Shown piece after piece: positions 6,908 through 37,469 of a stretch of DNA of 64,000 nucleotides. The stretch covers positions 417,501 through 481,500 of the forward strand of contig JACVVK020000477.1 in NCBI GenBank assembly GCA_018292915.2. Direction: 5' to 3'. Numbering within the stretch: position 1 is the stretch's first letter; each line of letters opens with the position of its first letter. The notes under the pieces were generated by a model, which was not told where the DNA came from, made no database searches, and saw only the letters and a program-made list of their open reading frames with translations. The DNA is from Batillaria attramentaria. Taxonomy: Eukaryota > Mollusca > Gastropoda > Batillariidae. Both the position numbers and the translations under genes were made by a program.

Positions 6908-8353
6908 ATGGAAAAGTACAAAAATAACCCTGAAGGAAAACGCCAACAGTTCCGGGACAGTCAGTGTAGTCGGTGTGGACAGGTCGGCCATGATGCAGAA
7001 AACTGTCCTACATGTGGTTTGTGTGGACAGGTCGGCCATGATGTAGAAAACTGTCCTACATGTGGGTTGTGTGGACAGGTCGGCCATGATGCAGAAAACT
7101 GTCCTACATGTGGTTTGTGTGGACAGGTCGGCCATGATGCAGAAAACTGTCCCACATGTGGTTTGTGTGGACAGGTCGGCCATGATGCAGAAAACTGTCA
7201 CGAATGTGGTTTGTGTGGACAGTTCGGACATACTGAAGAAAACTGTACTGAATGTGATTTGTGCGAACAGTTCGGCCATGATACAGGTAACTGTCCCAAT
7301 GCTTGTCGTCGTTGTACACAGGTCGGACATCATGAAGAAAACTGTCCCGAATGTGATTTGTGCGAACAGTTCGGCCATACTGCAGACAACTGCCCCAATG
7401 CTTGTCGTCTGTGTAGACAGGTCGGCCATACTGCAGACAGCTGTCCTGAATGTAGTTTGTGTGGACAGTTCGGCCATACTAAAGGCAACTGTCCCAATGC
7501 TTGTCGTCGCTGTAGAAAGGTCGGACATACTGTAGAAAACTGTCTCGATTGTCGTCAGTGTGGACAGTTCGGTCATACTGCATCAGACTGTTCCTATGTT
7601 CTGTGTCATCGCTGTGAATGGCGTGGCCATAGTGCACAAGACTGTCCCAGTTTCCCGTGTCATCGTTGTGGACAGGACGGCCATGTTGCTTCAGAGTGTC
7701 CCTGCACCCCACCCTCGGCATCAGTGCAGTGCCAAAGCCAGCAACAACCATCTCCCCACATTGGAACACACGGCCAGCAGCAACCATCCCCCCACACTCC
7801 TTACACTGGAACACACGGCCAGCGGCAACCATCCCCCCACACTCCTCACACTGGAACACACGGCCAGCGGCAACCATCCCCCCACACTCCTCACACTGGA
7901 ACACAAGGCCAGCGGCAACCATCCCCCCACACTCCTCACACTGGAACACAAGGCCAGCAGCAACCATCCCCCGACACTCCTTACACTGACACACAAGGCC
8001 AGCAGCAACCATCCCCCAACACTCCTTACACTGGAACACAAGGCCAGCAGCAACCATCCCCCCACACTCCTCACACTGGAACACAAGGCCAGCAGCAACC
8101 ATCCCCCCACACTCCTTACACTGGAACACAAGGCCAGCAGCAACCATCCCCCCACACTCCTCACACTGGAACACAAGGCCAGCAGCAACCATCCCCCCAC
8201 ACTCCTTACACTGGAACACAAGGCCAGCAGCAACCATCCCCCCACACTCCTCTGTCCAATCCTCAGCCTACGTCACACCGTCCTTCACCTTCACAAGGAG
8301 GTCAAGGTCAACACCAGGCAGCAGTTCAGCAAGGCCAGCAGCCAGCACGTCAG
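6908..8353 (+). CDS. Exon 1: fifteen CCHC zinc knuckles plus P/Q-rich repeat
   Basis: The start is the ATG at 6908, preceded by an A-rich leader (Kozak-like A at -3). A 5-codon upstream ORF starts at 6875 (ATGTCC), and TTTCAG just before it may mark a 5' UTR splice acceptor. Residues 20-275 hold fifteen knuckles of the form C-x2-C-x3-G-H-x4-C (for example CGLCGQVGHDAENC). Such knuckles bind single-stranded RNA or DNA in CNBP-like and Gag-like proteins. Knuckles 2-5 are almost identical at the DNA level, so they duplicated recently; later ones have diverged. The exon then encodes about ten copies of a 15-residue Pro/Gln/Thr/His repeat. The donor is CAG/GTTTGT at 8353/8354; without splicing the ORF stops at 8366-8368. 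Confidence 0.8.
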
Positions 8354-11300
8354 GTTTGTGGACAATAACTTCAGCTTGTCTTTTTGTTGTTGTTGACGAT
8401 GATGATGATGATGATGATGATGATTACTATTATTATACTTACACTCCATTCTTGTAACTTCAAACGGTCAAACACTGTGCCCCCTATGGAGAAACAAAGG
8501 TCGTTCAGAATTTTCTGACCTGTGGGGTTATGCTCAAACCACCTGGCTATACACAAAAAGCTGCCTCCGCAGCAACAGTCTGTTCCAATAATCCGTCACG
8601 GGGGACTTGGGGAATTTTGTCTGGTAAAGACGAATGGTGGAGAAAACCCGTGGATTAAACGAATGATTCAAACATTACACACTGTCTTGGGGAACAGTGT
8701 GGCAAAACAGATCATGCAGTGAACGATGATTTGTATCGACATTTCGTCTATGAGATCGACCATGTCGTCGTACAGATCTAGGTTATGAGATCAGTATAGG
8801 TCATTTTCTTCCGTGCTGTGAGTTGTAACAGAGTTCACTTCCAACTCACCAGCCAACTAGTATGTTACAGGGACAATCTGTAGGATGTTTACCCTCACAC
8901 ATCGTCCTGAGCTTATTTCGTGATGTCTAGCAGGACCCCACTGAGACACCTGCACAGTGACACCATTTACCTGCACAGTGACACCATTTTCCTCTACAGT
9001 GACACCATTTACCTGCACAGTGACACCATTTTCCTCTACAGTGACACCATTTACCTGCACAGTGACACCATTTACCTCTACAGTGACACCATTTACCTGC
9101 ACAGTGACACCATTTACCTCTACACTGACACCATTTACCTCTACAGTGACACCATTTACCTCTACAGTGACACCATTTACCTGCACAGTGACACCATTTA
9201 CCTCTACAGTGACACCATTTACCTCTACAGTGACACCATTTACCTGCACAGTGACACCATTTACCTGCACAGTGACACCATTTCAAGTGCTGGCACTGAG
9301 AGAACAGAAATATACTCGTACTCTACCTCACTAACGCGGCTGACACGCAGAGTGAGATTGTTGTATATTCAGGCGTAGAATTTGAATCCTTGGCTGCGCA
9401 TGCAAAGTGTAAACAACAGTTTCGCATTAAGAGCTCTACTCATCATCAAAATAAGAACATTACAGGCGCACTCACAAGCGAAACTGTTCCAAAACATAAG
9501 TTAGTAGCCATGGCAACAGTCCGTTTAAATACAAGGCAGGTGATATGTATTCCCTACACATTTATCTGTCTGTCACCTAACCAAGTGCATGTAGTATAGA
9601 AGGTGGCCTAGCCAAAAATGACTGAAAACCGTCACACACGTTTGAAATGATAAGAATTATCTGTTTAGACTTTCTTACTAAACTGTTGTGATGTACGTGT
9701 GATTTAGTATAATATTATTATGTTGCCTTCATATAAGTGTACGGGGAAATCATAAAATATACATTGCTTTCATTTTCTGTGAATCTGCAGAGAAATCATC
9801 CTACTTGGCAAGTATTCTGTCTGCGGAAGACATGATCGTGTATTCATCAAATCAAATTAACTACTCGTGTACTGTAATGTGGTAAAAATGTGCAACAGAA
9901 CCTACTGACTTCATTTAATTATTTATTTCACTTTTTGTAGACACAAGATCCGATGTCATGGCGGCAGTGTGTGAGACAGTGGTATCCAGACCTGTTACAG
10001 CGGACACACTTCCTGCCGCACGTCTACATGCACCGCGTGCAGCACGAGACACGGGTGGTAGCTGGGCTGAACGTCAACGTCCCACAGTCAGCACAAGATC
10101 AACGTCCCGCGGGCGCCAGTAACGTGTTGTCCACGAGCGATGTACGGGATGACAGGGCGCAACAACACGTCCTCCATTGTCTCCAGGCCATGAGCCACTC
10201 TCAGCGTGACGTCATGTTCGTCTTGTCCCAGATGGGTTTCGGCGATTATCTCGACGGCTCGTGTTATGCCGCCGCCTCATCCTCATTACCGCGACCCGTG
10301 GACTTGAGGAAGAAGCAACTGGATGCTGGGGACTTTGATGTCCTCATTATACACAGACAGTACGGCATACTGGCAGGTGAGATCAAGTCTGTCGGAGCCA
10401 CCGCTACACAACGGGGATTGACTCAGCAACAGCTACAAGATGAAGTGCTCGCTAAACTGAGGAAGACCCTGAACTGTAAGAGACCAGGACAGAAAAGGCC
10501 GAAAAAACAGAAACCTGGCCAGTTGGGAAAGGCACGTGAAGTCCTGCGTCACGTGACAAGTGACCTTCAGCAGCCTCCGAGAGTGCGTGCGACGTTAATG
10601 TTGCCTTCTGTTTCCAGCGCCACACTGCGGGCAGCACTGACTCAAGATCCGCCCACCAGAGATGTGAGTTGATGACTCTCTCTCTCTCTCTCTCTTTTCA
10701 AGGGTCGTGAGTTCGTATCCCGGTTGGGGCCAAAAATCTGTGCTGGCTTTTCCATCGTTGCCCCGTCTTTGATATCACCCTATGTGGTGGAAAAGGACGT
10801 TAAACACCCCCCCCCCCCCCACACACACACACCCTCTCTCTTTTCAATGTTCGGCTGGGGCCAGATATTTGTGCTGGCCTTTTCTTCGTTGCCCCGTCTT
10901 TGATGTCACCCTTACGTGGTGGAAAAGGACGTTAAACATCCATCCATCCATCCATCCCTCTCTCTCTCTCTCTCTCTGTGGTTGATCTATAGCAGTAACA
11001 ATTCACTAATAACTGTTCACCTAGCGTTTGTTGCAACAATAATAGCATGAAATCCTGTAGACTGACATTATGAAAGCTTGTTAAAGGAAAGTCACATACG
11101 ATAGTGACAATAATGACATGGAGTAGGTGTTAATGTCCATCAAAATGTTGCATTTCCAAATCGTGCCGTAGGGTTTAGAAAATGGTATGAACGGTAAAGG
11201 CGGTAGGAAGGGGACGACATTTTCAAGCACCATTATTTATTTCGTGTTTCATCTTTCTTCGTTTCAAGTTTACAACTGACCTGTGTGTTTGTATAAGTTT

Positions 11301-11889
11301 TATTTCTCTGTGTCTGCTACAGGCCCTGTGTAGAGAGCTGGATATTCCACTAACTGCCGACCCTGTGGACTACTGTTTGTGTTCTGACAACATGTCGGAC
11401 GCTAGCACGCCACACCAAGTCACTGATGACGTCATGAGAAGTCTGTCCAGTTGGTGGACACGGTGTGTAGCAGGGGCCGGGCCGGACTCCGCCATGACGG
11501 ATGACGTGTATGAGACCCTTGTGGCCAGGTAGGGTCCAACTCACTCTGAATAAAGTCATCTGTTACGTCATTCGTCGAGTGTGATTGTTTTTTTCTTTTA
11601 AAGATTTTGTAAAACTACAATATTACGTTTTGGGCGTAATGTCTTGCGCAAGTTGGCATTGTGATACAAAGTTTCCATGGCTGTTTTGTCGGGAAAGACT
11701 CCAGATATCATCGTGTTTTGTAATCTGGGGAGATATCGTGTTTTGTAGGAAAAGATAACATCTTGTTTTGTAGGGAAAGATATCATCATGTTTTGAAGGG
11801 AAAGATATCATCATGTTTTGTAGGGAAAGATATGCTTTGCTCTTATCTTTCGTGTTATTTTGTTTTCTTTTTTTAAACGAACCTAAGTG

Positions 11890-11949
<60 letters not shown>

Positions 11950-12277: not shown

Positions 12278-12308
<31 letters not shown>

Positions 12309-15300
12309 CATATTGCGACAGATTGTTTCCTTCACTGTGATGAGTTCATTCTCTCTCCTATATCCTGATATAACCCATGGATTTATTGACAGATTTGCGG
12401 GTCCGGCGACTGTAGTGAGGATCTTCTGTAAGACCGAGCCCCGGTTACACGTGACAGACTTACGTTCTGCCGGACAGTTCGTCTCCCATGTCGGTGACAG
12501 GATGAGCCAGATCGCCCTGTTGCCGGATCAGGTAAATATCTATATTACCGCCTGTCGGCAATGGTTCTCTACTCCTATCACAGTCTAATCCAAACGCCTC
12601 CCAAAATGCATGAAGCTTTTTCCTGTTTGCTGTCTTATCTTAGCGACCAACACCAGCAGGTTACCGTCAATGGGTCATTTGTTTTAAACGGGTCAGTAGC
12701 ACGAGGCGTACCCCAAGGTTCCCCCCTTGGTCCCCTCTTATTCAACCACGACCTCCCATGACATGTAAACCACCAACAAGTACCACGTGACTTATTTTAC
12801 ATATTTACTAATCGGACCTATCCTGACACCTAAATCACGAACAAGTGTCACGTGAGTCATTCGCTGAGGACGCAACCTTTCAGTTTCACACCGCCAGCAA
12901 CAACATCACCACAGTCACGCTAGTGGACGCTTGCAGCGGGGTTTGGACGAAGTGTCCGACTGATGCCAACGTAACTCTATGGTATTCAATCCATCTCAAA
13001 CTGAGTGCATGATTATAACAACGAGACAGGAACATCAGCTCGAACCACTTGTTCTTAATTTGTCTCTCCATAACCAGTCCATTGTTCGAATCAATGAACA
13101 CGGTTTACAGGGGGGTAATCGTTGACAACCAGTTGAAATGTCTACCACTGCCCAGTTCACTCCCCTTGATATCCGACTCTGAAGTCGGATGGTTCATCGC
13201 CAGTCCCTGACAAAGACTTACTGTATAATTCTTAAAGCGTACTGTTTAGCTGTACTAAAAATAGTCATAGACGACCAGTAAAGCCGTTAGTTTGAGTAGA
13301 AATGACAAAACCTAGAATGTTGACTGTAGGTATTTGGGAACAATTTTGCCCCAAAAGGCTGAACTGGTAAGAGTTCATAAAATTTGCAAAAAAGGTATCG
13401 AGAAATTTGTTCCTGCTGTCACAGCTGAGACATTTCATTGACACAGACTGTAAAATTATGTTATACTGCTCATATCAACACTCACATTGATCACGCCTCT
13501 ACCATTATGGAATGGAAGCAGTGACGTGCACTTACAGAGTGTCGATCAACTCCCTACATCGTAGAGCAGCAAAACTGATCCTACCTGACCCTTCCCTGTC
13601 TACTGACCAGAAACTCTAAAAACTAGAGATGTTCCCTCCCTCAACTTCTTTTCAACAAAGGGTTCAAATCCTACATGTTATTTCTGTCATGGTTTTACTG
13701 CTTCAGAATCCCGTTATTCAAGCTCCAGATTACGTCTCATTACCCTACGTCCAAGATATCTTTAAAACAAGCTTATCATTCTCGGGTGCTTCTCTTTGGA
13801 ACAGTCTGCCCACCGTGATCACAAACAGTGGACCGCTGTCTTTGTATAAAAAGGATCTCATTAATCTCTATGTTCGTAATGGGTTCTAAGGGGAACAACT
13901 GCCGCTAATAAAACTCTAAGGCAGTTTACAAAATGAATAGATGTTCCTTTGGTCGTTGTGACCATTTTAGTGACTTTTTTCCGGCTTCTAATAAAAAAGA
14001 GACTTTTGTAAAGGCCTAACGCTTCCTTACTTGTACCACATGTCGATCGACCAAGTCACTAAAAATAGCCACCAATCAGCGGTGTCTAGCTGGTTGTAGT
14101 CAGTCCGCAACCAAATAATGTCGTCTGCTCGGTACGTAATACGTACATAGAACAACGTATCAAGTTTTCCCGCGCGTTCTAGTGTGAGACCCCTTGCTGC
14201 GCGTCTTGTCCGCAACGAAAATCTCTGTCGCGGGCCGATAGAAAATGTTCTATTCTTGCGACAAAGACGCGCGTAAATTATTGCTATCAGCCAATCAGAA
14301 ACGAGTATGAGCCTGGCAGGGGAAGCCACTGGTACAACAGCGACAGCAGCACTAAAATCGCATCTTCATCTTCTTCGGATGATCTGTAGGACGCCATCTT
14401 GTAAAAACTTTCGTAGCTGTCTACGTCACGCTAGTGTGAGAGCACGATCACGCGCGTGCGACGTGGGTAGCGACACGCACGCTCGATGTGCCAAGCGTTG
14501 CGCGCGGGGCGTTACGCTAGTGTGAGAGGACCCTAAGGAAGTATCAGTATAAGTATTTCCTAGTCGGGACAGTTCTTCTTGCTGAAGCGCTTGTCGGTAA
14601 CCGATGTTTTTGAAGCCATCCTTTCTACGAAAAGACCGCACATGGCAAGGAAGTTACCGAATGTAAACAAAATCCACGCCTGGGGCATGCGCACATGTGT
14701 TTATTTATGTGTGGAGAATTACATAATGTTGTTCTGTTTTGTTTTTCGGTGCACTGCGATCTAGATAATAAAAATTCGTATTCGTATTCATGCTCTAACT
14801 TCGACTTCTGCATCGCACTAAATCGCTCCCGCTAGACTCGGAGTAGCTAGTCTGGGTTAGGCCCGTAGCCGTGGGTTAAATTAACCTCGACTTTTACATG
14901 CGGGCCCAGAAGCCGACAGAGTCATTTTTACAATTTTCTAAGCTGGAAAGTATATTTAATTTGTACATTTGTTATTTTCTTAGACAACAAACTCTTCTAC
15001 GCTTTCCTCGTTTGACAGTAAGCAGTTCTATCATTGTCAGCTCGCTATTATAGGATTCTATCTTTAGACTTCAGTGTATGCAAGCGGTGAGCACGTGATC
15101 AGCTCCGAATCACGTGGACAGTTAAATGTAGTTGACCAGACTCAGTACTGTACTTTGAAGTGCTGCTGTACCAAACACACACAAAGCGAAGTGCATCTTC
15201 GCTACACATTACTGACTGTCAGCACCGGCTCTCTGCCCCTATCACGTGATTCCATCTGTACTCTATATTACTGACTGTCAGCACCGGCTCTCTACCCCTA

Positions 15301-18300: not shown

Positions 18301-18686
18301 GATACGATCATTACTCTGTATTACCGGGTGTTAGCAGTGACTCTCTACCCCTATCAGATGATACGATCTTTACTCTATATTACCGGGTGTCAGCAGTGAC
18401 ACCCTACCCCTATCAGGTGATCCGATCTTTACTCTGTATTACCGGGTGTCAACAATGAGTATCTACCCCTATCAGCTGACTCTGTGTTACCGGGTGTCAG
18501 CAGTGATCTCTACCCGGTATCAGCTGTGCGGCTTCGTTGCCCCGTCACGGTCATTGTGGAATTCACTCCCTGCCTGTCTGAGAGACTTGACGGACATGGA
18601 TCGTTTCAATTCTCACTTGAAAACGTTTCTGTTCCGGCTGGCTTTCAACTAGGTCGTTACTGTATTTATACTCTTGACTCATCTGA

Positions 18687-18745
<59 letters not shown>

Positions 18746-20063: not shown

Positions 20064-20138
<75 letters not shown>

Positions 20139-22368: not shown

Positions 22369-22442
<74 letters not shown>

Positions 22443-26269: not shown

Positions 26270-26342
<73 letters not shown>

Positions 26343-29300
26343 AGTCATTGAACCTTGCCATTAGCTACTTGAATAGACTGTGGTGGGAAATCGGGATCTA
26401 ATGACGGGGGTAGTGCGGTACGGAGATCAGATCTATTTTTAGTTCAGCCATTCACACGTCAGCTTACACCCTGCCCCAGAACAGGACTTCATTACACCGT
26501 GTCATTCACACGTGAGCCTTGAAGACTTTGTCTCTTCTGTTACAACCGTCTGCTATGCCGGTGTACCGGCTCGTAACAGTCTGTCGGTTCAGTGTTATAG
26601 TTATTTCGGTAATCAATCGATCAGTAGATTAACACAGAAACTCTTCGCGAAGTCAAAAAGACGTCAATTCTTCGCGGAGCGTGTCTTCGCTTGATTAATA
26701 ACGGCCTTTAGGGCCTGTTTTGTTTACATTGTATTCACAAACTCTCTCTGATGCGATCTCCGCTCATGAGTGTGCTTTTCATAAGTATGCAGACGACACT
26801 GAACTGTCAAATAGCAAATAGCAGTACTCCCGACCATTTCAGCTCTGCTCAGCTGAGCATTCAGTGTTGTATTTAAGCTGTTTTTGTGTTGGATGGCCAG
26901 CAACAAGCTTAAACTTCACACTGACAAACCCGAGGTCACGCCTGTAGGCTCCGGCTCAGTCGCATCTCGGACTGATTGGCACTTCGGTCGCAAACATCGG
27001 TGGTTCTCAGGTCTCTTTCCAGAACTGTGTGAAATATCAAGGTGTCAAGACCGACCAGACGTTCTCCATGCATGATCAGATCAGCAGCGTCTTGTTTATT
27101 GAGGAAACACAGACAGACAGACAACACACAATCAAAACCATTCAACACGCGAACAGACACACAAACAAACAAACAAACAACGCGCGAACATAATTATTGC
27201 ATACGTGAACAAACACACAACCACGAACGCACAAACAAAAGCATTCAACACCCGAACACAGAAAAACTTACAAACACAAAACACACAAACAAAACCATTC
27301 AACAACCGAACACACAAAGACACACAAACAAAACCATTGTTTATCCGAACAAACATACAGACAAACAAGCAACACACGGACGAAACCATTCAACGCCCGA
27401 ACAAACAAACAAGCGACACACTAACCATCCAGCACCCCCTCCCCCCCCCCGAAAAAAAGAAACCAACAACAACAGCAACCCCCCCAAAAAAACAACCAAA
27501 AAAAAAAAACCAAAAAAAAACAGACAACGCATGAATAAAACCATTCAGTGCGGAATAAATGAACATGTAGCGCTCGCCTTTTCGTTCTGGTGTCGTGTTA
27601 GTGTTCGTACAGTGGTAGCGAAGTCAGTGAAACGCTCTGGTTGCAATGTTTCTGTCACACACGCATCCACTCCGGCTCTGGCACACGCTGAACATAAAGT
27701 CGGACAGACAGAACAACTGAGCGACAACAAACTCACACACTCGCGCCATACACTCGAACTGACACAGTGAAGCCAGAGAATAAACTCAAGTCAGGTTCCG
27801 AGTTGTATTCACGGTCCAACTTCACATACATAAAGGCGAGAACAAGTTAACAAAGAATGACAACACTAACGTGAATTCGTTTGACAGAAAATAGCTGTCA
27901 GGCTAACGTTTGCAAGGGAAACTGAATACTACTAAGTTGAATGGAACACTGAAAAAGATACGCGAAGTCGGAGAAACACGTACGGAAAACTATACTGTCC
28001 AACTGCCTACAATCCTGTCCAGTGTTGGAAGCTATCACCCTTCCCACGGCAAGTGCCTTACTGTGCGCTATGTTCGGACCTGGGGCCTGACCACGGGAGG
28101 TCGGTAAGCGGGGAATCTTAGTTGTCGAGCAAGGAAAAAGAAAAGAGGGAAAGAGAGAGAGAGAGGATTTGCGTGAGACTAATTACTATTTAGCTCACGC
28201 GAGAGGGGACAGAAAGAGAAAGACAATACACAAAGTCAAATTCGCTTCAAACACACAGCACCCGAAGAAACACACACAAAAACAAACAACTCAACAATAA
28301 AAATTAAAATCATTCAACATCCGAACAAACACACAAACAAACAAACAACACACGAACGAAACAATTCAACACGTGAGTGAGCTTTTAGGGCTTAAAGCCG
28401 CGCAAGCCACAAAGACTAATTCGCGGCTGTCAACACGTGAGTAAACACATAAACAAACAAACAAACAACACACAAACAGAAACCTATTCAGCACCGGAAC
28501 AAACACAACACACGAAAAAAATCATTCAACATCCGAAGAAACACACAAACAAAACCATTCAGCACAAAAACAAACAAACAAACAACACCGACTCGAATAA
28601 AAACAAACTACTATTCAACACCGGAACAAATACACAGCACACGAACAGAATCATTCAACACCCGAAGAAACAAACAAGGAAAAACAACAACCAAAAACAA
28701 CAAACAACACACAAACAAAATTTCCAAGACCCGTACAAACATACTAACAGAAACCATTCAACACCCGAACAAACAAACGAACAGCATATAAATACAAACT
28801 ACACCACCACGATATCATTGACAAGTAGATACTAACGGTCAGCATACGGCGTCGACAATAGTAATTACAGACATAAACAAGCGGTTGCAACTGTAATAGA
28901 CTAAGTAAACAAACAGTAGGCCTAGGAGCGCTCAGTACTAGAACGTTCTGAAGATGGCAATGTGCACGTACGTTCAGTTGAGCGTAGCCAGGCTAGCCCC
29001 TAGCGTAGGAAAAGTAGCACCCCGCAGAGGTGCTAGCTTCGGCTAGCTTCTCATCAGTTTCAAGATGGCGTCCGTTCGTGTGTGTGGCTTCAATTTTTTT
29101 CAGCTGTTTGATTTTTAAAGATCGATGGGTACCGCATCATAAATGATATGACCGTTGTGTATCAGGCTTGATCTGTACCAACTTATTATCCAGTTTAATT
29201 TGCTGAATCCTGTTAGGGACGTCCATAAATCATTTCTAAGCCAGCGTTTCCTTTGTTCGCGTTCAGCGTTCACGCTCAGCGTTGGTTGTTGCTTAACTGA

Positions 29301-32300
29301 CGAAGTCTTTCATATGCGCGTCAGTCTAGGTTTCTGTCTTTGGCCTGCTTCTCTTCACTCAACATGCAAAACAACTTGTCTGTGACTTGCATCATGCTTA
29401 CGATCGCCCCCTCAACAGCATTATAGCAAAGTTCTTGTTTAAGAAGTTCCTTCACAACGCCAACGCTCACGCTTTCCGCCATTTTGAAAATGCTCGCACC
29501 GCTAGCGCCGTTCAGTTGACTGCTAGCTTTCTCCCTTTTGCGATCGCTACGTCGACCTAGATATCTAGCTCAACTGAACGCGCCTCGGGACACACCCACG
29601 ATGCCTTCAAACCGCAAAACAAGTTGCGCGCCGTTCACAAGCGCAAGGCTATTTATGGCTGGCATGGCTTTCCTCTCCGTAGGCGGCCAGCGCCAACGCC
29701 ACGCTATTCGCGTTGCCACGCTATTGGCATTGCATAACATAACCTAATTCCGCACGCTGGACGCTCCGTCCTCTTGTCCGATGTGTCCAGCTCATTGCGC
29801 CAGCGTCGCTTTTGGAAGACAGACTTCAGTTCGCTCGGCAGCAGCGGCCTCTGTTTTTACAAACTTGACGCTTTTTAGTTCGGCATTTGCCAACCTACCG
29901 AAAGAAAGTGGGTACCTCCTGGCTTACCCGGAAGTTGCACACGATAAGCAACACCTACCCTCTCTCGATTTGGTTTCCGTGTCGCCTAGGACACGGAGCG
30001 GAGTTCCCCCGCACTTCTTTCCAACAGGCTTGCGAGTTCACCGTCTCGTGTTTTGTCCAGTCTGCTGTTTACCATTTGAGTAAGCCTGCTACGGCGTTTG
30101 AGCTTTGGCGAGAGGAGTTGTCCACTTTTTCTCCCTACTTTTGGGCGCTGAACAGGAATCCTGTCGGTCAGGCTTCCTGTTCGTGGCGGGTTCAGCCCCC
30201 AAAACAGTAGTGGATTTCGCAATACTGCTTTTCTCCTTGAATCTTGGACTTGTATGTTTTATTAATCCTTTGCTGGGATTTTGCTTTTGGTTTAAACAGT
30301 TTTTATTCATTTTAAACGGACAGAAAATTCACTCGCACAATTTCGACAATACCGAGCACAACAAGTTAAAAACTTATGAATGTGCTCATAAGTACAAAAA
30401 ACAATTTGCGGCGGAGTATTATAAGACAGATCTGTAAGAGATAGAGAAGAGAGAGGATAGAAAGAATGACCAATAGATACAGTACAAAGAAAAATGCAGT
30501 GGGATTGCGTCTGCGACGGTGGCAGCGGGCCGGCGACTGGTATTGGAAATCGGAATTTAGGTGTCAAAGCGACCTGATACTTCTATAAAGTGCTGTACAG
30601 TTTTAAAAATGTTTATATTATCATTCAAAGGAAGACAGAGATTCCCTCTCAAGAGGGTGTCGATGTTGTAGTTATATGGAAGAGTTGATATTGTTTGCGT
30701 GCGTGCATTATTAAAGAGAGGACAATCCATAAGAAAGTGGGCTGGATCTTCAACAACGTGGCCGCAAGCACATGAGCGGTCTTCAGATAGATGTCTCTTA
30801 AAGAGATGGTCATTAAGATCACTCATCTCAAGCCTCAATTTACAATGAATGCTCTGGACTAATCTTTCACCTGAATAATAATAGAAAGGTACTGCAGGAT
30901 CTGCACTAGATAAAAAACGTTTGAAGGAACTGAGTGAATCTGAGAACTTAACGTGATCCGGCAACTCATTCCATGCGGCAGTTGTTGAAGGGAAAAATGA
31001 AGATTTATATAACTCAGTGCGACAACGAGGCATCTGTCTTTCTAGGGGATTACGTACATGATAGGGGTTCACTGATGACACCAGAGGGGGCAGACGTTGA
31101 CAAAGATAAGAAGGAACATTCCCATTAACAATTTTAAAGTACAAGATTAATTTGTGTCTGTAACGTCTTTCTGAAAGTGATGTGAAACCTGATTCGGTGT
31201 ATAATTTACTATGGCTTGTACCTCGAACAGTTCCTATAATGGTTCTCAAAGCCTCAAGGTGCAAATTTTCTAAATCTTCAGCCAAATGAGCTGGACAGTT
31301 ATCCCAAACAACGTCTGAGAAGTCAAAATGCGGCATAATAAAAGACTTGTACATTACCTCGAGAGATTTCCTGCTCAGACGGTGTTTAAAAGAACGTAGA
31401 CAGGATACTAAGACTCGACATTTGGAAATGATTGACTGTATATGCTCATCCCATTTACAATTCTTCTGAATGATTACACCTAAATGTTTGTGGGAGTTCT
31501 TGTCAAGTAAGACTGTATTACCGAAAGCAAGTGGTAATGTAGATGGGTCTCTCTTGTTAGAAATGGTCATAAGCTCAGTTTTTTGGGGGTTAAAAGTCAC
31601 TTTCCATCTGGTTGCCCATAGACTAATCTTGTCTAGGTCAGAATTTAAAATTTCAGTTCTCCGGATTGTATTTTGAAAGCGCAAGTACATACTGGTGTCG
31701 TCCGCAAAAAGTTTAATGGTTGACTCTATGTCGTGGGTAATATCGTTAATATAAATTAAAAAAAGCAGGGGACCTAGAACAGATCCTTGAGGAACTCCAG
31801 CATGTATGGGGAGGTAATCAGATTTACTACCTTTGATTGTGACAGCTTGTGTACGACCAGAAAGATAACTTTCAAACCAAGTTAAAAGATTTCCTCTTAT
31901 GCCAATAGCAGAAAGTTTACTAAGGAGCCCTTTATGCCAAACTTTATCGAAAGCTTTGGATACGTCAAAGAAAATCGCCTGCGTTGTTGCTTGGTTATCA
32001 AGAGACCGACAGAAATCGTCATAAATAGTGAGCAGCTGATAAACCGTACAATCACCGGGAATGAAACCAGACTGAGAGGTGCTGAGAAGCTTATTAGTCG
32101 ACAAATATTCATACACATGATTTTGGACGCATTTTTCCATTACCTTCCCCACACAACTGAGTAAGGATACTGGACGATAATTAGTACATCTTTCTTTCTC
32201 TCCTTTCTTAAAGATTGGAGTGACATTAGCTTGTTTCCATATATTAGGAAAAATACCCTCAGTCAACGAACGGTTAAACAGAATTACAAGTGAGTCTGAC

Positions 32301-33822
32301 AGAACGTCAGCTGAAAGAGATAATATTCTATTATGGACTAAATCGGGACCCACAGCTTTTTTCAGATCAAGACCTTTAAGAATACCTTTAACCATGTCAA
32401 TAGTCACAATCATATTGTCTGCAGAATTCACAGATTCAACTAAGGTAGGTACGTCGTCGTCTTGGCCTTCCACCCGAGCCTGGCTAACGGATTTTGCTTT
32501 TCCGTTTGTCAAATAAATTCACTGAACGTGGACAACTCCGCCAATAGCTCGGGTCGTGTTTTAGTTAGTGTAGGTTTTGACTTGTGGTACCTCTACAGGG
32601 CGAACATGCAGTAGATTCTCTGGGACACAAAGTTTTCCCTGTCTCACGAATGCCAGACATAAATATACAAACACGGGCGGCGGGTGAAGAGCTGTCTCGG
32701 CAGTTCATAAACCCTCGATACACAAGCGGGCCAGCACCCTCACTAAAGCCGTATATGGGCTGTCAGGCTCCCTATCTCCATGCAAGGCCAAAGCATCCAC
32801 TAGCACGACAAGGGTCTGCGTTGCAGTCACTGGCACCCAAAGTCACTCAGGCTAAAATCCACAAACTAACAAACAACACACAAACAAAGATGTAAAGACT
32901 GGTTGGTTTGTTAAAGCTAAAATACGTCGCCTAAAAACTTGCTCACCGTATTCTGTGGGTGCACATGTGATGGTGTTGAGTGATTCAGGCAGGCAGGGAG
33001 ACAAACACAGCGGTCGCTATGACATGAGTTTTATTGCAACAGGAAAACAAAAAGCAGAATACCAACAAACGCAGTCACAAGCGGCAGGGCTGAGAGCGAG
33101 GGTGTGAGCGTGCCGCGAACCGTGGCTCGCAGCTCCTTATATGCGCTCAGCGCGGCCCGCAAAGAAGGCAACGGCCGCTCGCAGCAGAAACAAGGGCTAG
33201 ATGCTCTCGAGCGGCGAAATCTGTGTTTGTTTACACACAGAAAACTAACAATAGCGGGCGTAATACAACAGCTACAAACTTCAAACAAACTGCATTCAAA
33301 AGAGCGTGAAAAGTACTTTAAGATGGCGTAAGTTTTGGCACATTATCAAAGTACAGAGAATTTCCTATCGCCGATTTAAGAGCGTAAAGACAGGGACCAC
33401 GCATTTGAAAAAGGGTGAAAAAGGCAAAATACACTAGTTGAACTACAAAACAGCGCTAACAACAAAACATGATCGGAAAGCACAAACTCTTCGGAAACTA
33501 CTACAGTTACCATGATAACTTTAGGTTAGGCGACTGCGGAGATATTTAGCACGAAATGGACACAAACAAACACAACTAACTGACACGTGGCTATCGTGGA
33601 TCCGCAACGCTGCACGCGTGCGGTAGCCTACAGGCGAACAAAGCCGGTGTCATAAAGTTGTTAGACCCCCATAGTACTTGGACCCCCCCCGGTCCAATAA
33701 GTTTAAAGTTAATGGACCCCTCCTATAGTTGTTGGACCCCCCTGTTACTTAAAGGTGTTTCTCATTACTTAAGGTGTTTTAACCCATGTCGTGATTGTTT
33801 ATAGATCTCCCTGTGATGTTTG

Positions 33823-33859
<37 letters not shown>

Positions 33860-35631
33860 GCGCGCGCGCGAGCGCGCGCGCGTAGTGAAGGTTTTTTTTT
33901 TTTTTTTTGGGGGGGGGGGGGGTGGGTATGAGTCGTGTATGATTCAGGCTCCAATCCATTTATTTTCATCATTAATTACTGGTTATTATCAACTTGTCTA
34001 CAAAAATAAATGATTCTTGGTATTGAAAGAAAAAAAATGATTAAAATATCAATGGTAAATATTTTCTAAGAAAATCTTTAAGAGGCCAGCAGAAACAATA
34101 TTATAAAACCGTGGTTAAAATACAGAACACAAAACGTGTTTTACAAGGGTGACGATTTACAAAAGACGTAAACATATCGGAATCACAGATTTCACATTAA
34201 CAAATAAACTTCCTGAGATATTAAAATGACATTACACCATCAATATTTTTTTTTTTACTCCTCCATGTACACCCCCCCCCTCACCCCCATCCTCTCATCT
34301 ACGTCGTACTGACCCTGCCCCTCCATACATATGACGCAACCACACCACCCCTCTCAATCCATATTGACCTCCCTCCCCCCCCCCCCACCTCCATCCCCAC
34401 ATACACACAAGCGCGCGCGCAACGTCAAAATTCACACATCCACTGCAGACCGCAACCCTTTAACCCCATACCCCCTCCCCAGCCCTCCGAGCAGGTAGAT
34501 CCCCCATCCCTACCCATCGTCCAAATACTCACCCTCACCCCCACCATCCCCATACTGACCCCGCCCCCCATCCCGACTCATCAGTCCATATTCTATCGCC
34601 GTCAATATTAACAATAGCAGTTTTAATTGCAGAACTTTGTTTAGCGGACTTCAGTTCACACATCGGCAACACCGACACCCCCCCCCCCCCCCCCCACACG
34701 CCTGAATACGCACACACGGCAAACAGAGATACTTTGTTATTTGTCTTTTTACGTGATAGCATATTTTCCTTCAGAAATCCAATGTGTCTGAGTCAATACC
34801 TCAGCTAGTTCAGTTTACTTGTACCAGAGTTACTCCTAAACCATAATGTGTGGTGTACGAGTGATAGAAAACAGAATAGAGCTATAAGTAATTGAATTCT
34901 TTTCAAGTGAAAGGGGTATACCCTCTGATTATAATTGTTGGACCCCGGGGGTCCATTAACTTTAAAGTTATTGGACTGGGGGGTCCATTACTTGGGGGGT
35001 CCATTAACTATACCACACCGGCGGCACACAGCTGGCCGGAGAACCTAGGGTAGTGGGCGAGAGGGTCCAAACGACTCGGCTACACACACACACACCTATT
35101 CGTAAAACAAGAAAACTTGCGCGCTGGACATCGTGGGTGCAAACACACCCATGTTTGTAAAGGAGAAAAAACAAACACGTATTATGCAATGTTTTTGATG
35201 TGTATTTACTTGTTTGTCCACCATCCAAATCACGGAAGGTTTGATGATCACATTTACAAAAACCGTACTTAAAAAGTCACTGAGTTTCGTGGATCTAGCG
35301 TGAATTGATGGGCGTTGAAATGAAGTTGCGGGTGCATTTGTACCCATCAGGTACGGTGAAGGTTAGAAGGAAACTTTACAGTTTTTCACATTGTTTGTTT
35401 GTTAGCGTCTAAAGCGTGTAAAGTGGTATTTTTGGTTAAATTAAACTTTTCACTTGTCGCGCCAGTTGTACTTAGACACTTGGTCGAGTCATGGTCTGTG
35501 ACATTCAGTACATTGTGTGTGTATAGGTTGCTACGTTTACTCCAGGAAAGCACAGTGAAACTGAGCACAAACAAACAAAAGGGAAAAAAGCCAAACTAGA
35601 CCGTGCAAACAAACAACTTGCTAACCAAACG

Positions 35632-35721
<90 letters not shown>

Positions 35722-36660
35722 CATGGCGGTACTGCTATATAGCATGTTGTTTAGTATTGACGTCAAACTATTTGCTGAAATCGGAAATGTGAATTATTGC
35801 GTCAGAGCTGTACATTTTTTACGTCACTAACGTTTGCGACCAGAAAACCGATGGACGTTGTCTCCTCTCCATGGACGTTAGAAGTCAAGTCATGTCTTCA
35901 GCCTCAGTCTGCTAGTTGTCTGTCCGCTGTCACTACACTGTGGGGTTTGTTGTTAGTGGACGCCAAATTTGCTGATTTCATTTTGTTTTGTTTTGTTTTG
36001 ATATTTTCTTACAATCGTGCAGTTGTTGATAGGTAGAACTACCGCTAATATTTCTTTGTTTATCAGTTTTGCAGATTTTTTTGTTTTTGTGGTCGTTGTG
36101 GCTGTCGCTGGTGTGGTTGTCGTCGTCGTAGTTGTCGTTCTTATTATCGTCGTTGTCGTGGTAGTAGTTGTTGCTGAAGTGGGAGATAACTCACTCTGTC
36201 TGTCTGTCTGTGTCTCTCTCTGTCTCTGTCTCTCTCTGTCTCTGTCTCTGTCTCCTGGTTGACGTCATCCACTAACCGTCTTCTCCATTCTCTGTAACAG
36301 TGACGAACTGGATGTCCTGTACCAAGCGCTAGTCAACAACAAGAAGCACGTCAGGCTGTGGGCAGCATGCCTAGAGCCTGGCGCCGCACCCTCATGTCTA
36401 CAGAATCACGTTCACACGATGACAACTCCCTTGCGCTGCCCCCCGTGCGTTGTACGGGAGGTGGCGGCATCACGCAACATTAAGACAGGAGATGTCCCCG
36501 ACTACACAACACCAACGGCTCCCCTGCCAGCTGACGGACCGCCCGTCATCACTGTGAGCCACCAGGGACCCGGGCACGAGGAGGAGTATACATATGACTG
36601 TGAGGCGTGCGGCCGGGAGGTGGGGAGGATACTGACACAGGTGTTACACGTCGGTAAGTA

Positions 36661-36717
<57 letters not shown>

Positions 36718-37469
36718 ATCTGTGTCAGGGGAGATAACATTGTAGATCTAGTTGGGTGAGTTATTGTTTACATTTTGGATAAAGGGGTGGGGGGTGGATA
36801 GGGGAGGATGCGCATGATTACCTTGAGGTGTGTTGTCGCTGTTTGTGATGGTGAAAGTGTCGGCGTTGTCGTTGTTGTTGCGGTGGTCGTTGTATGAGCT
36901 GTGTATGATTTAGATCTAACCAACGCTCTGTTTCCTAGAATTATAGCGCAGTTCGGAATATTCACTACGACAACGACAACCGCCACCATCCTCACCATCA
37001 TCATGGTCTCCACTACCACCACCACCACCACCGCCACCACCCCCACCACCACCACTGACGTTTGTCGTTGTACGTTTCAGGTCAGGGCGGCAACCCCAGC
37101 AGCAGCAGCACCACGACCTTACAGTACCGGGACGTCTTCGTCCTGTCGTCGTATAACGTCCACGATGACGAGACAGACGACGCGGGTGACGTGACCAGAC
37201 GAGCTAGCGGCGCGGTGCGCGGCCTCCGTCAGGCTGGAGTGCCGGTGCGGGTGGTTGGGGCGGGTGATAATGCGGGTGTGGGTGAGGTGGGTAGAATGTC
37301 GGGTGCAGACAGTGTTATAGTAACACTTTGTTACTGTGTGCAGGGACTGGAGAGAAAGGTTGTAGTGTGGATGGCGGGAACACGGTATAGTGGTGGTGAT
37401 TCAGTCTGGGGCCGACTTTTCTCCATGTCCCGTACTACATCACAACTTATCTGGGTAAAGTATTCTTAA
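6908..37469 (+). CDS. Zinc-knuckle / PD-(D/E)XK nuclease / SF1 helicase fusion gene (7 exons, whole span)
   Basis: Seven exons join to a predicted protein of 1197 residues: 6908-8353, 9941-10663, 11323-11528, 12393-12531, 18858-19195, 36301-36653, 37081-37469. Each junction has GT and AG, and the phases (0,0,2,0,2,1) agree. Domain order: fifteen CCHC knuckles (about 20-275); a Pro/Gln-rich 15-residue repeat (about 285-450); a NERD-like nuclease with D615 in GDFDVLII and E629-x-K631 in AGEIKS; helicase Q-motif-like LLPDQ (834-838); Walker A GPPGTGKT (853-860); Walker B LVADEAE with D945 and E946; motif V QGLE (1156-1159); motif VI SMSRTTSQL (1183 on). SF1 helicases move along nucleic acid with ATP; PD-(D/E)XK enzymes cut it. 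I recall uncharacterised lancelet and mollusc proteins of similar nuclease-helicase type, but no assigned function. Exon 1 could instead be a separate gene ending at TAA 8366-8368. No promoter is assigned; intron 5 is 17 kb. Confidence 0.75.
7745..8252 (+). repeat. In-frame 45 bp minisatellite in exon 1
   Basis: About ten full copies and two partial ones encode QQQPSPHTPYTGTQG-like 15-mers. PHTG and PYTG forms alternate over the last five copies, suggesting a 90 bp duplication unit. Pro, Gln and Thr dominate, so the segment is likely disordered, a linker between knuckles and nuclease. Confidence 0.95.
8399..8438. repeat. (GAT)n / ATT microsatellite
   Basis: Short trinucleotide tract at the start of intron 1. 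Confidence 0.8.
8950..9285. repeat. 21 bp minisatellite, 16 copies, intron 1
   Basis: Exact 21 bp spacing of AGTGACACCATTT. The two variants CTGCAC and CTCTAC are interspersed. Because 21 is a multiple of three, all six frames look open or regularly patterned, but the array lies inside intron 1 and has no coding evidence. Confidence 0.95.
9941..10663 (+). CDS. Exon 2: PD-(D/E)XK (NERD-like) nuclease domain
   Basis: The acceptor is TTTTTTGTAG-like (ends 9940) and the donor GAT/GTGAGT (10664). The 241 codons are open and in phase with exon 1. The key motif is GDFDVLIIHRQYGILAGEIK: an Asp ending a strand, a Gly-Ile strand, then E-x-K. This is the D-(x)n-ExK catalytic pattern of PD-(D/E)XK enzymes, closest in shape to NERD domains. 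An upstream helix with QQHVLHCLQAM followed by MFVLSQ fits the first helix and strand of that fold. A Lys/Arg/Pro/Gln-rich basic stretch (GQKRPKKQKPGQ) follows and could contact nucleic acid. Base composition is GC-richer than the introns, as expected for coding DNA. If exon 1 is separate, ATG 9953 could be a start. Confidence 0.75.
10702..10800 (+). mobile_element. SINE, 5'-truncated copy
   Basis: Starts at the B box (GGGTCGTGAGTTCGTATCCC), continues with GTTGCCCCGTCTTTGATATC and GTGGAAAAGGACGTTAAAC, same family as 2041. It is followed by a poly-C tract. Confidence 0.75.
10845..10945 (+). mobile_element. SINE, 5'-truncated copy with CATC tail
   Basis: Starts near TTCGGCTGGGGCCAG and ends in GTGGAAAAGGACGTTAAAC, then (ATCC)n and (CT)n. 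It sits in tandem with the copy at 10702. Confidence 0.75.
11323..11528 (+). CDS. Exon 3: linker between nuclease and helicase
   Basis: The acceptor is TCTGCTACAG (ends 11322) and the donor AG/GTAGGG (11529). 68 codons plus two bases are open, in frame with exon 2. It encodes ALCRELDIPLTADPVDYC and SWWTRCVAGAGPDSAMTDD, a mixed helical segment without catalytic motifs. It probably completes the nuclease fold and leads to the helicase core. Its identity rests on splice phase and context. Confidence 0.7.
11893..11946. repeat. (GA)n microsatellite
   Basis: Pure GA tract in intron 3. A shorter one lies at 12281-12308. Confidence 0.95.
12393..12531 (+). CDS. Exon 4: pre-helicase segment with Q-motif-like end
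   Basis: The acceptor is TTATTGACAG (ends 12392) and the donor CAG/GTAAAT. The first base completes an Arg codon with the AG of exon 3, giving ARFAGPATVVRIF. The exon ends with ALLPDQ, which sits just before the Walker A exon, as the Gln of the Q-motif does in SF1 helicases. The whole exon is open and in phase on both sides. Confidence 0.7.
12586..13890 (+). pseudogene. Degenerate CR1/Jockey-type LINE ORF2 remnant
   Basis: The frame at 12600-12760 contains SYLSDQHQQVTVNG and GVPQGSPLGPLLF, the reverse-transcriptase block before the catalytic Asp pair. Further on, FAEDATF near 12855-12875 is a decayed form of the FADDT box. The end at 13530-13889 carries LHRRAAKLILPDPSLSTDQ and SGASLWNSLPTVITNSGPLS, the usual C-terminus of these LINEs. 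Stops and frameshifts are frequent. It lies in intron 4 of the helicase gene, same strand. Confidence 0.75.
14160..14535. mobile_element. Possible DNA-transposon/MITE fragment, CpG-rich
   Basis: The motif CTAGTGTGAGA recurs at about 14177, 14430 and 14517, within unusually CpG-rich DNA (CACGCGCGTGCGACGTGG). The style resembles subterminal repeats of Harbinger-type elements, but I could not define terminal repeats or a target duplication. Confidence 0.25.
15207..18500. repeat. 59/48 bp satellite array, about 60 units
   Basis: The basic unit runs TTACCGGGTGTCAGCAGTGA, CTCTCTACCCCTATCA, GATGATACGATCTGTACTCTATA. A short 48 bp variant lacks 11 bases (CATCTGTACTC-like) after GATTC. Variants at the site (ACGTGATTCC, AGATGATACG, ACATGATTC) are mixed along the array. 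It lies in intron 4. Confidence 0.95.
16069..17140. repeat. 536 bp higher-order repeat within the satellite
   Basis: The order of 59 and 48 bp variants from 16069 repeats from 16605 onward, with apparently identical sequence for some 300 bases. The shift is 536 bp. Confidence 0.75.
18519..18652 (+). pseudogene. LINE ORF2 C-terminal fragment
   Basis: The frame reads SLWNSLPACLRDLTDMDRF and LKTFLFRLAFN, then a stop at 18650-18652. This is the standard end of CR1/Jockey-type ORF2. It sits at the downstream edge of the satellite. Confidence 0.7.
18689..18744. repeat. (GT)n microsatellite
   Basis: Pure GT tract in intron 4. Confidence 0.95.
18858..19195 (+). CDS. Exon 5: helicase Walker A and Walker B
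   Basis: The acceptor is TGTTTCATCAG (ends 18857) and the donor GG/GTGAGT (19196). 112 codons plus two bases are open. The exon starts VDMIHQAPDLAYLAG and runs into GPPGTGKT, where the Lys and Thr bind ATP phosphates and magnesium. It ends DVCLVADEAELF, with the Asp-Glu pair of Walker B that activates water. Between them, AAHLIKQQLEET is a helix as in SF1 helicases. GC-rich codon use stands out from the AT-rich, repeat-filled introns. The final GG joins T of exon 6 to give Gly, reading ELFGDELDVLYQALV without a break. Confidence 0.85.
19197..19725. repeat. Inverted copies of a CAAACAAA-rich dispersed repeat
   Basis: From 19197 to about 19370 the sequence is TGTTTGTTCGGATGTTGAA-like; from 19375 on it is the complement type (CAACACCCGAACAAACAC, about 50 bp spacing). 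The two halves form a large imperfect palindrome. The same family recurs at 20449-20600, 27100-27540 and 28250-28800. Confidence 0.75.
20067..20134. repeat. (CA)n microsatellite
   Basis: Pure CA tract in intron 5. Confidence 0.95.
20207..20450 (+). mobile_element. Dispersed repeat, probable retroelement 3' end
   Basis: Shares with 25459-25750 the order TTGGTGTGAGGTGTG, a poly-C tract, CAGCCGCT..TAGTCTTTGTTGCTTG-like core, GGTTTTAAG, TTGCCAAAGGATA, then an ATTATT tail. A microsatellite-like A/T-rich end is typical of LINE or SINE 3' tails. A reverse-oriented 51 bp piece of its core lies at 28379. Confidence 0.6.
20449..20600. repeat. CAAACAAA-rich dispersed repeat
   Basis: Contains AACAACACACGAAC and CATTTAACACCG blocks at about 50 bp spacing, as at 27100. 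Confidence 0.6.
20660..20935. repeat. ~115 bp tandem repeat with poly-G tracts
   Basis: Three copies of GAGCCAGT(A)AAAGGAAGGACGTT-type sequence, each followed by a G run of up to 20 and GCGTTCAGAT. G-run length varies, so sequence length here may be unreliable. Confidence 0.75.
21031..21134. repeat. Poly-G block facing poly-C blocks
   Basis: A G-rich stretch (21031-21050) is followed by C runs at 21067-21078, 21106-21115 and 21120-21133, with AAGACCATGGCTTTG between. Strands could pair as a hairpin, and the G runs could form quadruplexes. Confidence 0.6.
21838..22200 (+). pseudogene. LINE ORF2 C-terminal remnant
   Basis: The frame gives QNRAACLIVSAARHQPITPI, LHWLPVQTRIMYKI and SRSLRSTEL before a stop, the conserved C-terminal region of CR1/Jockey-type LINEs. 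Downstream, decayed sequence including a GIWNSLP-like end extends to about 22200. Confidence 0.7.
22368..22440. repeat. (GT)n microsatellite
   Basis: Pure GT tract in intron 5. Confidence 0.95.
23136..23300 (+). pseudogene. HARBI1-like transposase N-terminus, truncated
   Basis: The ATG at 23136 (AAAATGGCG context) starts 54 codons ending at TAG 23298-23300. RRERVFRDRTNPFDSYDDVD followed by FRFRRRDLQELCDLL is the conserved N-terminal part of Harbinger transposases and HARBI1, upstream of the DDE nuclease. The DDE catalytic domain is absent, replaced by unrelated sequence, so it is not functional. Confidence 0.75.
23609..23885. mobile_element. Nested foldback element with perfect 34 bp inverted repeats
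   Basis: GTCAGGTTAAATGCGTGGCA and the bases to 23642 recur inverted at 23852-23885 without a mismatch over 34 bp. Outside these, imperfect pairing continues (GTCGAGTCATGTTTCTCTGC against the complement of GCAGATAAACACGACTCGA), interrupted by TAGCAA on the left. The loop has no ORF of note. Confidence 0.75.
24200..25450. other. No recognisable feature
   Basis: Mixed-composition intron DNA. A short imperfect duplication (TAGAGAGGGGAGAGATGTGT) occurs near 25162 and 25212. No domain or transposon end is evident. Confidence 0.5.
25459..25750 (+). mobile_element. Dispersed repeat, second copy
   Basis: Matches 20207-20450 in order and sequence, with the TCTTCAGCCG..GTAGTCTTTGTTGCTTG core duplicated. 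Ends in (ATT)n. Confidence 0.6.
25760..27090. other. No recognised gene; contains a (GT)n tract at 26270-26338
   Basis: Frames up to about 80 codons exist (for example from 25840) but show no domain I recognise and no conserved neighbours. The GT tract is pure. Confidence 0.5.
27100..27540. repeat. CAAACAAA-rich dispersed repeat, tandem units
   Basis: Blocks such as AACCATTCAACACCCGAAC alternate with ACACACAAACAAACAAAC at about 50 bp spacing. It ends in C and A homopolymers. Confidence 0.75.
28250..28800. repeat. CAAACAAA-rich dispersed repeat, tandem units
   Basis: Same family as at 27100, here interrupted by a 51 bp insertion at 28379-28429. Confidence 0.75.
28379..28429 (-). mobile_element. 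51 bp micro-insertion with 13 bp target duplication
   Basis: Perfect copies of TCAACACGTGAGT lie at 28366-28378 and 28430-28442. The 51 bp between them, read on the minus strand, is CAGCCGCG..TAGTCTTTGTGGCTTG and GCGCGGCTTTAAG, matching the core of the dispersed repeat at 20207 and 25459. Confidence 0.75.
28971..29580. mobile_element. Possible 610 bp MITE with 13 bp inverted ends
   Basis: CGTTCAGTTGAGC at 28971-28983 is complementary to GCTCAACTGAACG at 29568-29580. A partial inner copy (CGTTCAGTTGACT) is near 29510. No clear target duplication was found. Confidence 0.35.
29600..30440. other. No recognisable feature
   Basis: Open frames of up to about 110 codons exist on both strands but none carries a recognisable domain or splice context. 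Confidence 0.45.
30557..32520 (-). mobile_element. CR1/Jockey-type LINE, 5'-truncated, long intact ORF2
   Basis: About 650 codons remain open. The reverse transcriptase has TNYRPVSLLS, the first catalytic Asp in FFDVSKAFDKVW (about 181-192), GVPQGSVLGPLLF (about 239-251) and the Asp pair in FADDTSMYL (about 269-277). The C-terminus has a zinc-ribbon-like CACGHVVEDPAHFLMDC. The frame is preceded by a stop just upstream, and the endonuclease domain is missing, so this is a 5'-truncated copy that cannot move by itself. No stop codons have accumulated over 1.9 kb, so insertion is recent. It lies antisense in intron 5 of the helicase gene. Confidence 0.9.
33030..33145 (-). promoter_or_regulatory. 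Possible LTR core: TATA box and poly-A signal, minus strand
   Basis: On the minus strand GCATATAAGG (33145-33136) is followed about 105 bases later by AATAAA (33035-33030). A TATA box and poly-A signal at that spacing is the layout of an LTR promoter/R region. LTR ends and a target duplication were not found. Confidence 0.3.
33658..35008. mobile_element. 1.35 kb element with ~60 bp GGTCCA-rich inverted ends
   Basis: The left end (GTCCAATAAGTTTAAAGTTA, then ATGGACCCC) matches the complement of the right end (GTCCAATAACTTTAAAGTTA, then ATGGACCCC) over about 60 bases with a few indels. Each end has several TGGACCCC boxes in both orientations. The interior is C-rich low-complexity DNA, a CA/GC tract and homopolymers, with no transposase. 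Confidence 0.65.
33826..33872. repeat. (CA)n followed by (CG)n
   Basis: CA repeats run into an alternating GC tract, a purine-pyrimidine stretch able to adopt Z-DNA. Poly-T and poly-G follow at 33890-33921. Confidence 0.9.
35637..35720. repeat. (CA)n microsatellite
   Basis: Pure CA tract, 40 or more units. Confidence 0.95.
36301..36653 (+). CDS. Exon 6: helicase middle region with Cys cluster
   Basis: The acceptor is TCTCTGTAACAG (ends 36300) and the donor G/GTAAGT (36654). The first base completes Gly with exon 5. The exon encodes DELDVLYQALVNN, then MTTPLRCPPCVVREV, where the L-R-C-P block is in the place of SF1 motif IV, and YDCEACGREVGRILTQVLHVG. RCPPC and CEAC are two CxxC pairs and might bind a metal, but that is inference. 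The exon is GC-rich (56-60 percent by eye) against AT-rich flanks. Confidence 0.8.
36661..36713. repeat. (GT)n microsatellite at the intron 6 donor
   Basis: Begins seven bases after the exon 6 splice donor. Confidence 0.95.
37081..37469 (+). CDS. Exon 7: helicase motifs V and VI, C-terminus
   Basis: The acceptor is TGTACGTTTCAG (ends 37080). GT completes Gly with exon 6. The exon has LQYRDVFVLSSYNVHDDE, then DSVIVTLCYCVQGLERKVVV, the SF1 motif V pattern (T/S-x4-QGLE-x2-VV), and RLFSMSRTTSQLIWV, motif VI with the arginine finger Arg. The frame ends at TAA 37467-37469. TGG/GTAAAG at 37454/37455 is a possible donor, so a further small 3' exon cannot be excluded. A candidate poly-A signal lies at 38479; a better one at 40912. 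Confidence 0.8.

Follow-up and report, generated by a model that had tools for sequence, protein, structure and literature searches.

What kind of protein joins a row of zinc knuckles to a nuclease and a helicase, and what would a marine snail use it for? The question is raised by a locus in a stretch of 64,000 nucleotides from Batillaria attramentaria (GenBank assembly GCA_018292915.2, contig JACVVK020000477.1, positions 417,501 to 481,500), which we refer to as the window and in whose numbering positions are given. An earlier note, made from the sequence alone, had proposed seven exons encoding such a fusion protein. As described below, the gene is well supported and belongs to a family with many copies. 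We lean towards the reading that it belongs to a large caenogastropod family of single-chain nuclease-helicases that keeps duplicating, that its knuckle exon was gained in one Batillaria clade, and that the family acts in intracellular defence.

The gene and its exons

The seven exons are on the plus strand between positions 6908 and 37469. They were found again in the places first proposed. Each of the six introns has GT-AG ends, and joining the exons gives an open frame of 1197 codons (1197 amino acids). Exon 1 (6908..8353, residues 1-482) encodes 15 CCHC knuckles and a Pro/Gln repeat and ends with the phase-0 donor CAG/GTTTGT. Exon 2 (9941..10663, residues 483-723) encodes the predicted PD-(D/E)XK nuclease of the NERD type. 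Exon 3 (11323..11528) is a linker from the nuclease to the helicase, and exon 4 (12393..12531) continues it with a conserved RFxGPA block. The first RecA fold of the predicted superfamily 1 (SF1) helicase is encoded by exon 5 (18858..19195), a helicase segment with LWAAC, PLRCPP and a putative metal site by exon 6 (36301..36653), and the second RecA fold and the stop by exon 7 (37081..37469). Intron 5 (19196..36300), which is 17 kb long, holds repeats and, on the minus strand, a frame for a reverse transcriptase.

Three protein searches, each scoring no more than 8000 candidates of restricted length, returned 64 different relatives (P0001-P0064). Exons 2-7 align with one of them, the single protein P0002 (692 residues), with 43% identity over 99% (E 2.4e-149). 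Exon 3 and its splice sites were seen again in 33 of 34 tblastn matches among 35 genomic copies (the match in copy L050 is partial and L049 has none), and exons 2-5 with their splice sites were found again in one other copy, on contig C207. Because exons 2-7 align end to end with relatives and exons 2-5 recur with their splice sites, the gene is far beyond chance, and we hold the gene and the identity of its domains to be highly probable.

The two ends are less settled. An acceptor-like TTTCAG ends 45 bases upstream of the exon 1 ATG, and so an extra non-coding first exon is possible. A donor-like GTAAAG immediately precedes the stop in exon 7, and so the exact C-terminus may be provisional. 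Exon 2 has an early ATG at 9953 that could be an alternative start.

The nuclease and the helicase

The core is predicted to be an N-terminal PD-(D/E)XK nuclease of the NERD type followed by a C-terminal SF1 helicase with a UvrD/Schlafen-like fold, and its catalytic and ATPase motifs are intact in the window. The D...ExK nuclease motif that the earlier note had picked out is present in exon 2 as GDFDVLII (10328-10351) and GEIKS (10376-10390). A PD-(D/E)XK core runs helix-strand-strand-strand-helix-strand, with the D and the ExK on strands 2 and 3. The predicted model of P0002 has this order, with a helix at residues 72-92, strands at 99-106, 139-146 (DFDVLVIH) and 150-156 (GILVGEI), a helix at 167-198 and a strand at 208-214; short helices lie between strands 1 and 2. 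The NERD profile (PF08378) scores above the Pfam cut-off in two relatives (P0024 and P0052) and right at it in a third (P0050), and matches with E<=0.01 in 5 of the 24 members of a set of relatives (A1). The nuclease assignment rests on the motif, the profile in relatives and the modelled order of secondary structure.

The four helicase motifs named earlier were all located: Walker A (GPPGTGKT, 18900-18923) and Walker B (VADEAE, 19170-19187) in exon 5, and motif V (VQGLERK, 37338-37358) and motif VI (MSRTTSQL, 37425-37448) in exon 7. In the predicted structure two RecA-like folds follow the nuclease and carry motifs I, II, V and VI, as in an SF1 helicase. In Pfam the helicase of the window protein gave weak AAA-type matches below the cut-offs, and the best 60 matches of a sequence search of solved structures all lie around the P-loop. 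Two other features are conserved. In the RFxGPA block, which spans the exon 3/4 junction, R289, G292 and P293 (P0002 numbering) are invariant in 24 relatives. The segment HxxxxH...CxxC of exon 6 (36554-36613; P0002 residues 529-546), in which H529, C543 and C546 are invariant across the family and H534 nearly so, is a candidate metal site inside the helicase.

Copies in the Batillaria genome

The nuclease exon has at least 163 matches in the Batillaria genome (150 out of 429 candidates received a score), and some of these matches are pieces of a single copy. Thirty copies, including the one in the window, are 90-100% identical in this exon and open. The helicase exon 5 has at least 150 matches. 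For 108 nuclease-exon matches (30 close, 49 middling and 29 distant) we looked downstream on the same strand for a helicase exon no more than 30 kb away and ahead of the next nuclease exon, and 98 have one (30/30 close, 43/49 middling and 25/29 distant).

The family is amplified in tandem. For example, contig C207 has 19 nuclease-exon matches, all on the plus strand; 18 of these lie within 371-1031 kb, about 20-70 kb apart, and copies of a 93% type and a 62% type are interleaved. We read such same-strand rows as tandem segmental duplications; immune gene families are often arranged in this manner. A sister copy of the window gene (L002, L031; G000:C477:348903-349625) is situated about 78.5 kb upstream on the same strand; its exon 2 is 98% identical and it has 8 knuckles, compared with 15 in the window gene.

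So many copies could also be insertions of a mobile element, in which nuclease, helicase and knuckles would be the proteins of a DNA transposon. More than 100 copies, and a plausible transposon kit of nuclease, helicase and zinc knuckle, would fit, as would the observation that homology upstream of exon 1 stops 254 bases before the ATG in L037, L036 and L045 alike. However, upstream homology elsewhere ends at other distances: it spans the whole fetched stretch of 1.6 kb in L031 and 1.1 kb in L034, and 95 bases in L032. The genes also have multiple exons, conserved splice sites and long introns, the copies on C207 stand in same-strand rows, a stop interrupts only four exon 2 matches among those listed, and homologous families exist in four other snail genera. 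We therefore consider a mobile element very improbable and return to a family of duplicating host genes.

The knuckle exon and its probable junction to the core

The earlier count of fifteen CCHC knuckles proved correct: exon 1 has 15 strict occurrences of C-x2-C-x4-H-x4-C between residues 20 and 264 (positions 6965-7699), and the Pfam family zf-CCHC (PF00098) matches 11 stretches with 50.1 bits against a cut-off of 20.8 (E 2.2e-13). Pro/Gln-rich repeats of 15 residues follow at about 7733-8260. The repeat units are 48/99 bp in the knuckles and 45 bp in the Pro/Gln part, all multiples of three.

Is this exon joined to the nuclease-helicase, or is it a separate small CNBP-like gene that was copied together with it, the nuclease-helicase then starting at the ATG at 9953? 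Besides the presence of that ATG, many relatives in other snails start near this point, and a strict CCHC knuckle is absent from all 64. However, a knuckle frame is present within the fetched upstream stretch of 18 of 20 copies (L041 and L042 are without one), and in 17 of these 18 (the exception is L033) it ends with a phase-0 CAG/GT, the donor being GTTTGT, GTACGT or GTAAGT, while exon 2 starts in phase 0. Only the terminal position of CAG/GT is informative here, since the same letters are also met within knuckle codons. The arrangement is kept in copies that are just 58-75% identical in exon 2.

The genome-wide distribution also argues against a separate gene. The knuckle matches listed and used (150 of 169) form 79 loci. 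Going downstream from these on the same strand, a nuclease exon follows within 10 kb at 67 loci (median distance 2.1 kb) and within 5 kb at 65. Of the other 12, four precede a nuclease exon by 17-30 kb (on C207, C528, C637 and C770) and one, on C26, by 50 kb; for the remaining seven, no nuclease-exon match on that strand of the contig was among those used. Viewed from the nuclease exon, and again among the matches listed, a knuckle exon is upstream of 26/30 close, 38/49 middling and 2/29 distant copies, that is, of 64 of the 79 copies whose nuclease exon is at least 57% identical. Because the knuckle exon tracks the closer copies and adjoins nuclease exons, exon 1 is very probably part of the gene, and two separate genes are improbable. 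The knuckle exon is thus restricted to a clade, and its distribution would most simply be explained by one gain in the Batillaria lineage, followed by some losses.

Variation and selection among the copies

The number of strict knuckles differs from copy to copy: there are 3 in L048 and L050, 15 in the window, 19 in L036, 20 in L045 and 22 in L039. L044 has 32, with one stretch out of frame. Frame slips occur in the knuckle exons of L038 and L044, and L034 has one spoiled knuckle; the knuckle frame of L043 is only partly covered by the fetched stretch.

The ratio of nonsynonymous to synonymous differences (pN/pS, uncorrected) is 0.54 for the nuclease exon within the 30 close copies and 0.42 against five diverged copies (pS about 0.5). 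It is 0.76 for exon 3 (33 copies), and for the last three knuckles it is 0.73 within 15 copies, 0.67 within 4 diverged copies and 0.72 between the two groups. By these values, selection on the nuclease exon is mainly purifying, and constraint on the knuckles is weak or mixed.

Exon 1 may also move between subfamilies. The nuclease exon of L049 (C207:954800-960800) is 62% identical to that of the window, and its last three knuckles differ at 2 of 50 residues. Near-identical knuckles next to a diverged nuclease exon suggest that exon 1 was exchanged and that L049 is an apparent mosaic.

Relatives in other snails

All of the 64 relatives that carry a species name are from caenogastropods (Batillaria, Littorina, Nucella, Babylonia and Pomacea); the distribution may be wider. 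No relatives were found in prokaryote and viral contigs with scans that reach only sequences sharing the scanned patterns. The nuclease-helicase core is one protein in the long relatives, and five relatives (P0004, P0018, P0028, P0055 and P0056) come from contigs of about 2.5-3.5 kb with long open frames, which would fit transcripts.

Front and back ends differ among the relatives. For example, P0032 and P0034 have repeat-rich leaders. Residues 30-73 of P0020 (Pomacea) contain a sub-threshold KH-like stretch, possibly an alternative nucleic-acid-binding front end. A ZU5 domain scores above the Pfam cut-off in P0024 and P0029 (Pomacea) and in P0045 (Littorina), and P0024 has a tandem pair of nuclease-helicase units. 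The TMEM232 and ion-channel parts seen in P0033 and P0001 probably stem from gene-prediction fusions and were set aside. A death domain suspected by eye at the C-terminus of P0045 was also dropped, as it has no Pfam match and a PDB search returned only a PIDD chain (E 0.71).

The 18 genome copies included in a tree of 79 nuclease domains form one branch (95/85; the bootstrap is not fully settled) that adjoins two Batillaria proteins without annotated knuckles, and relatives group in Littorina-only, Pomacea-only and Batillaria-only branches. The best-scoring annotated match, P0001, is 45% identical over 86%, and P0017 is 70% identical over 18%; no near-identical annotated Batillaria protein for the genome copies was among those returned by the length-limited searches. 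According to the available part of the Batillaria attramentaria genome paper, repeats were masked ahead of gene prediction (PMC10382545). Masking of a high-copy family is one possible reason for the gap in annotation, and the length limits of the searches are another. A description of this family was not found by title or abstract start in a search that covers subscription journals thinly.

Comparison with known systems

Among bacterial defence proteins, NERD is given for Mokosh type I and Nhi-like systems in the table of one review (PMC10952713, available part), and excerpts of two other papers describe Nhi as a single-gene nuclease-helicase linked to phage SSB (PMC12904381) and a NERD nuclease that is part of a defence system of prokaryotes (PMC12458937). 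The snail proteins share with Nhi and the NERD-helicase proteins a nuclease and a helicase in a single chain, but the latter are bacterial. We know of no knuckle array or tandem expansion in these bacterial proteins. Matches to PADLOC models are weak and partial: the best is mad8 with P0008 (9.4e-06), and MkoC matches P0002 with 0.00012 and the window core with 0.00027. The NERD+UvrD, RTasNERD-Hel and Nhi models match more weakly still. The PADLOC Nhi model matched short P-loop stretches, and not the full length, in P0008 (E 0.0018) and P0002 (E 0.069), and gave no match for the window core.

Among animal proteins, the Schlafens SLFN11 and SLFN14 are the best Foldseek matches of the predicted model and have an SF1 helicase module. 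However, identity is 11-15% in the listed matches, and the nuclease motif is unlike that of the Schlafen core nuclease, which to our knowledge is not PD-(D/E)XK. The Pfam SLFN-g3 helicase profile is below the cut-off in the window and reaches E<=0.01 in 3 of 24 relatives. The resemblance to defence nuclease-helicases of bacteria and animals that was claimed at the outset is thus partly supported, by the single-chain make-up and the match of the helicase fold to Schlafens, and is weak and partial where the PADLOC models are concerned.

Dna2 and AddAB are also among the fold matches. They are repair enzymes with the same make-up of SF1 helicase and nuclease, and so the family could instead be a germline or housekeeping factor for genome surveillance (repair, transposon control or gamete conflict), amplified by genome conflict or drift. 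The mainly purifying selection on the nuclease exon would agree with this. However, a conserved repair role fits poorly with the genus-only branches and the variable front ends, and we regard surveillance as possible but rather unlikely. FREPs, NLRs and IAPs, with other domains, show the lineage-specific amplification of invertebrate immune families that is also seen here.

Other features of the window

The reverse transcriptase frame inside intron 5 (30557-32518, 653 amino acids, opposite in strand to the gene) matches RVT_1 with E 8.4e-36. A frame with a THAP domain is on the minus strand at 235-645 (E 1.7e-05; 25.9 bits, cut-off 23.9). Minisatellites with units of 75 bp (42678-43893), 84 bp (57378-57888) and 61 bp (55700-56034) are 98-99% matched, and another with a 59-bp unit is present at 15217-18479.

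Possible function and its meaning

Our best guess, made by analogy, is that the family defends the cell by sensing and cutting nucleic acid. The helicase would load onto viral or transposon nucleic acid that is single-stranded or aberrant, ATP hydrolysis would drive it along the strand or open the duplex, and the tethered nuclease would cut the nucleic acid. The knuckle array would set avidity, assembly or the choice of partner.

Several observations weigh against intracellular defence by this route. Tandem expansion is also typical of gamete, chemosensory and genome-conflict families. The nuclease shares the D...ExK core with the NERD domain, but the window's own exon 2 scored no Pfam family. 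Segments of 30 codons in exon 2 have pN/pS mostly below 1, but two reach 2.95 (codons 31-60) and 1.27 (codons 91-120), at very low pS. The close copies L027 and L029 (on C445 and C458), with no knuckle match within 10 kb upstream among those listed, are without the nuclease E-I-K, and P0030 (Pomacea) has the nuclease D and K replaced; these three are candidates for catalytically dead members. Finally, the knuckle array of the window has a net charge (K+R-D-E) of -18, 13 of 19 measured arrays are negative, one is zero and five are slightly positive (one of these, L043, is incomplete), and knuckle position 2 in the window is G, R, S, D or H and never aromatic.

The last point bears on what the knuckles do. 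The nucleic-acid-binding knuckles of retroviral nucleocapsid and CNBP, which have the same tandem motif with a GH core, usually carry an aromatic at position 2 and a basic surface. In contrast to these, the window array is acidic and without such aromatics, and it is a single repeat-built exon whose knuckle number varies between copies. Therefore, the array is not an obvious candidate for binding foreign RNA or DNA directly and so recognizing it. The idea in the earlier note of a variable front end that recognizes foreign nucleic acid holds for the variation and is weakened for the recognition; judged from the residues, a role in avidity, assembly or protein contacts is at least as likely.

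Since knuckle number differs and the effector is similar, the effect of a tunable knuckle array on a nuclease-helicase is directly testable. The family may be under-counted, because the gene set was built after repeat masking and no near-identical annotated protein was returned. A bolder and rather unlikely proposal is that the family is a germline repertoire of innate immune nucleases, with dozens of tandem genes, a fairly constant effector and a knuckle repeat that grows, shrinks or is swapped between paralogues, each with its own recognition or assembly surface. If this were true, the family would correspond, in molluscs, to the NLR or FREP repertoires, with direct cutting of the invading nucleic acid. 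Phage defence in bacteria makes regular use of single-chain nuclease-helicases, and the restriction factors of animals, including mammals, comprise the Schlafens; a family with roughly one hundred loci or more in a marine snail would form a natural link between the two.
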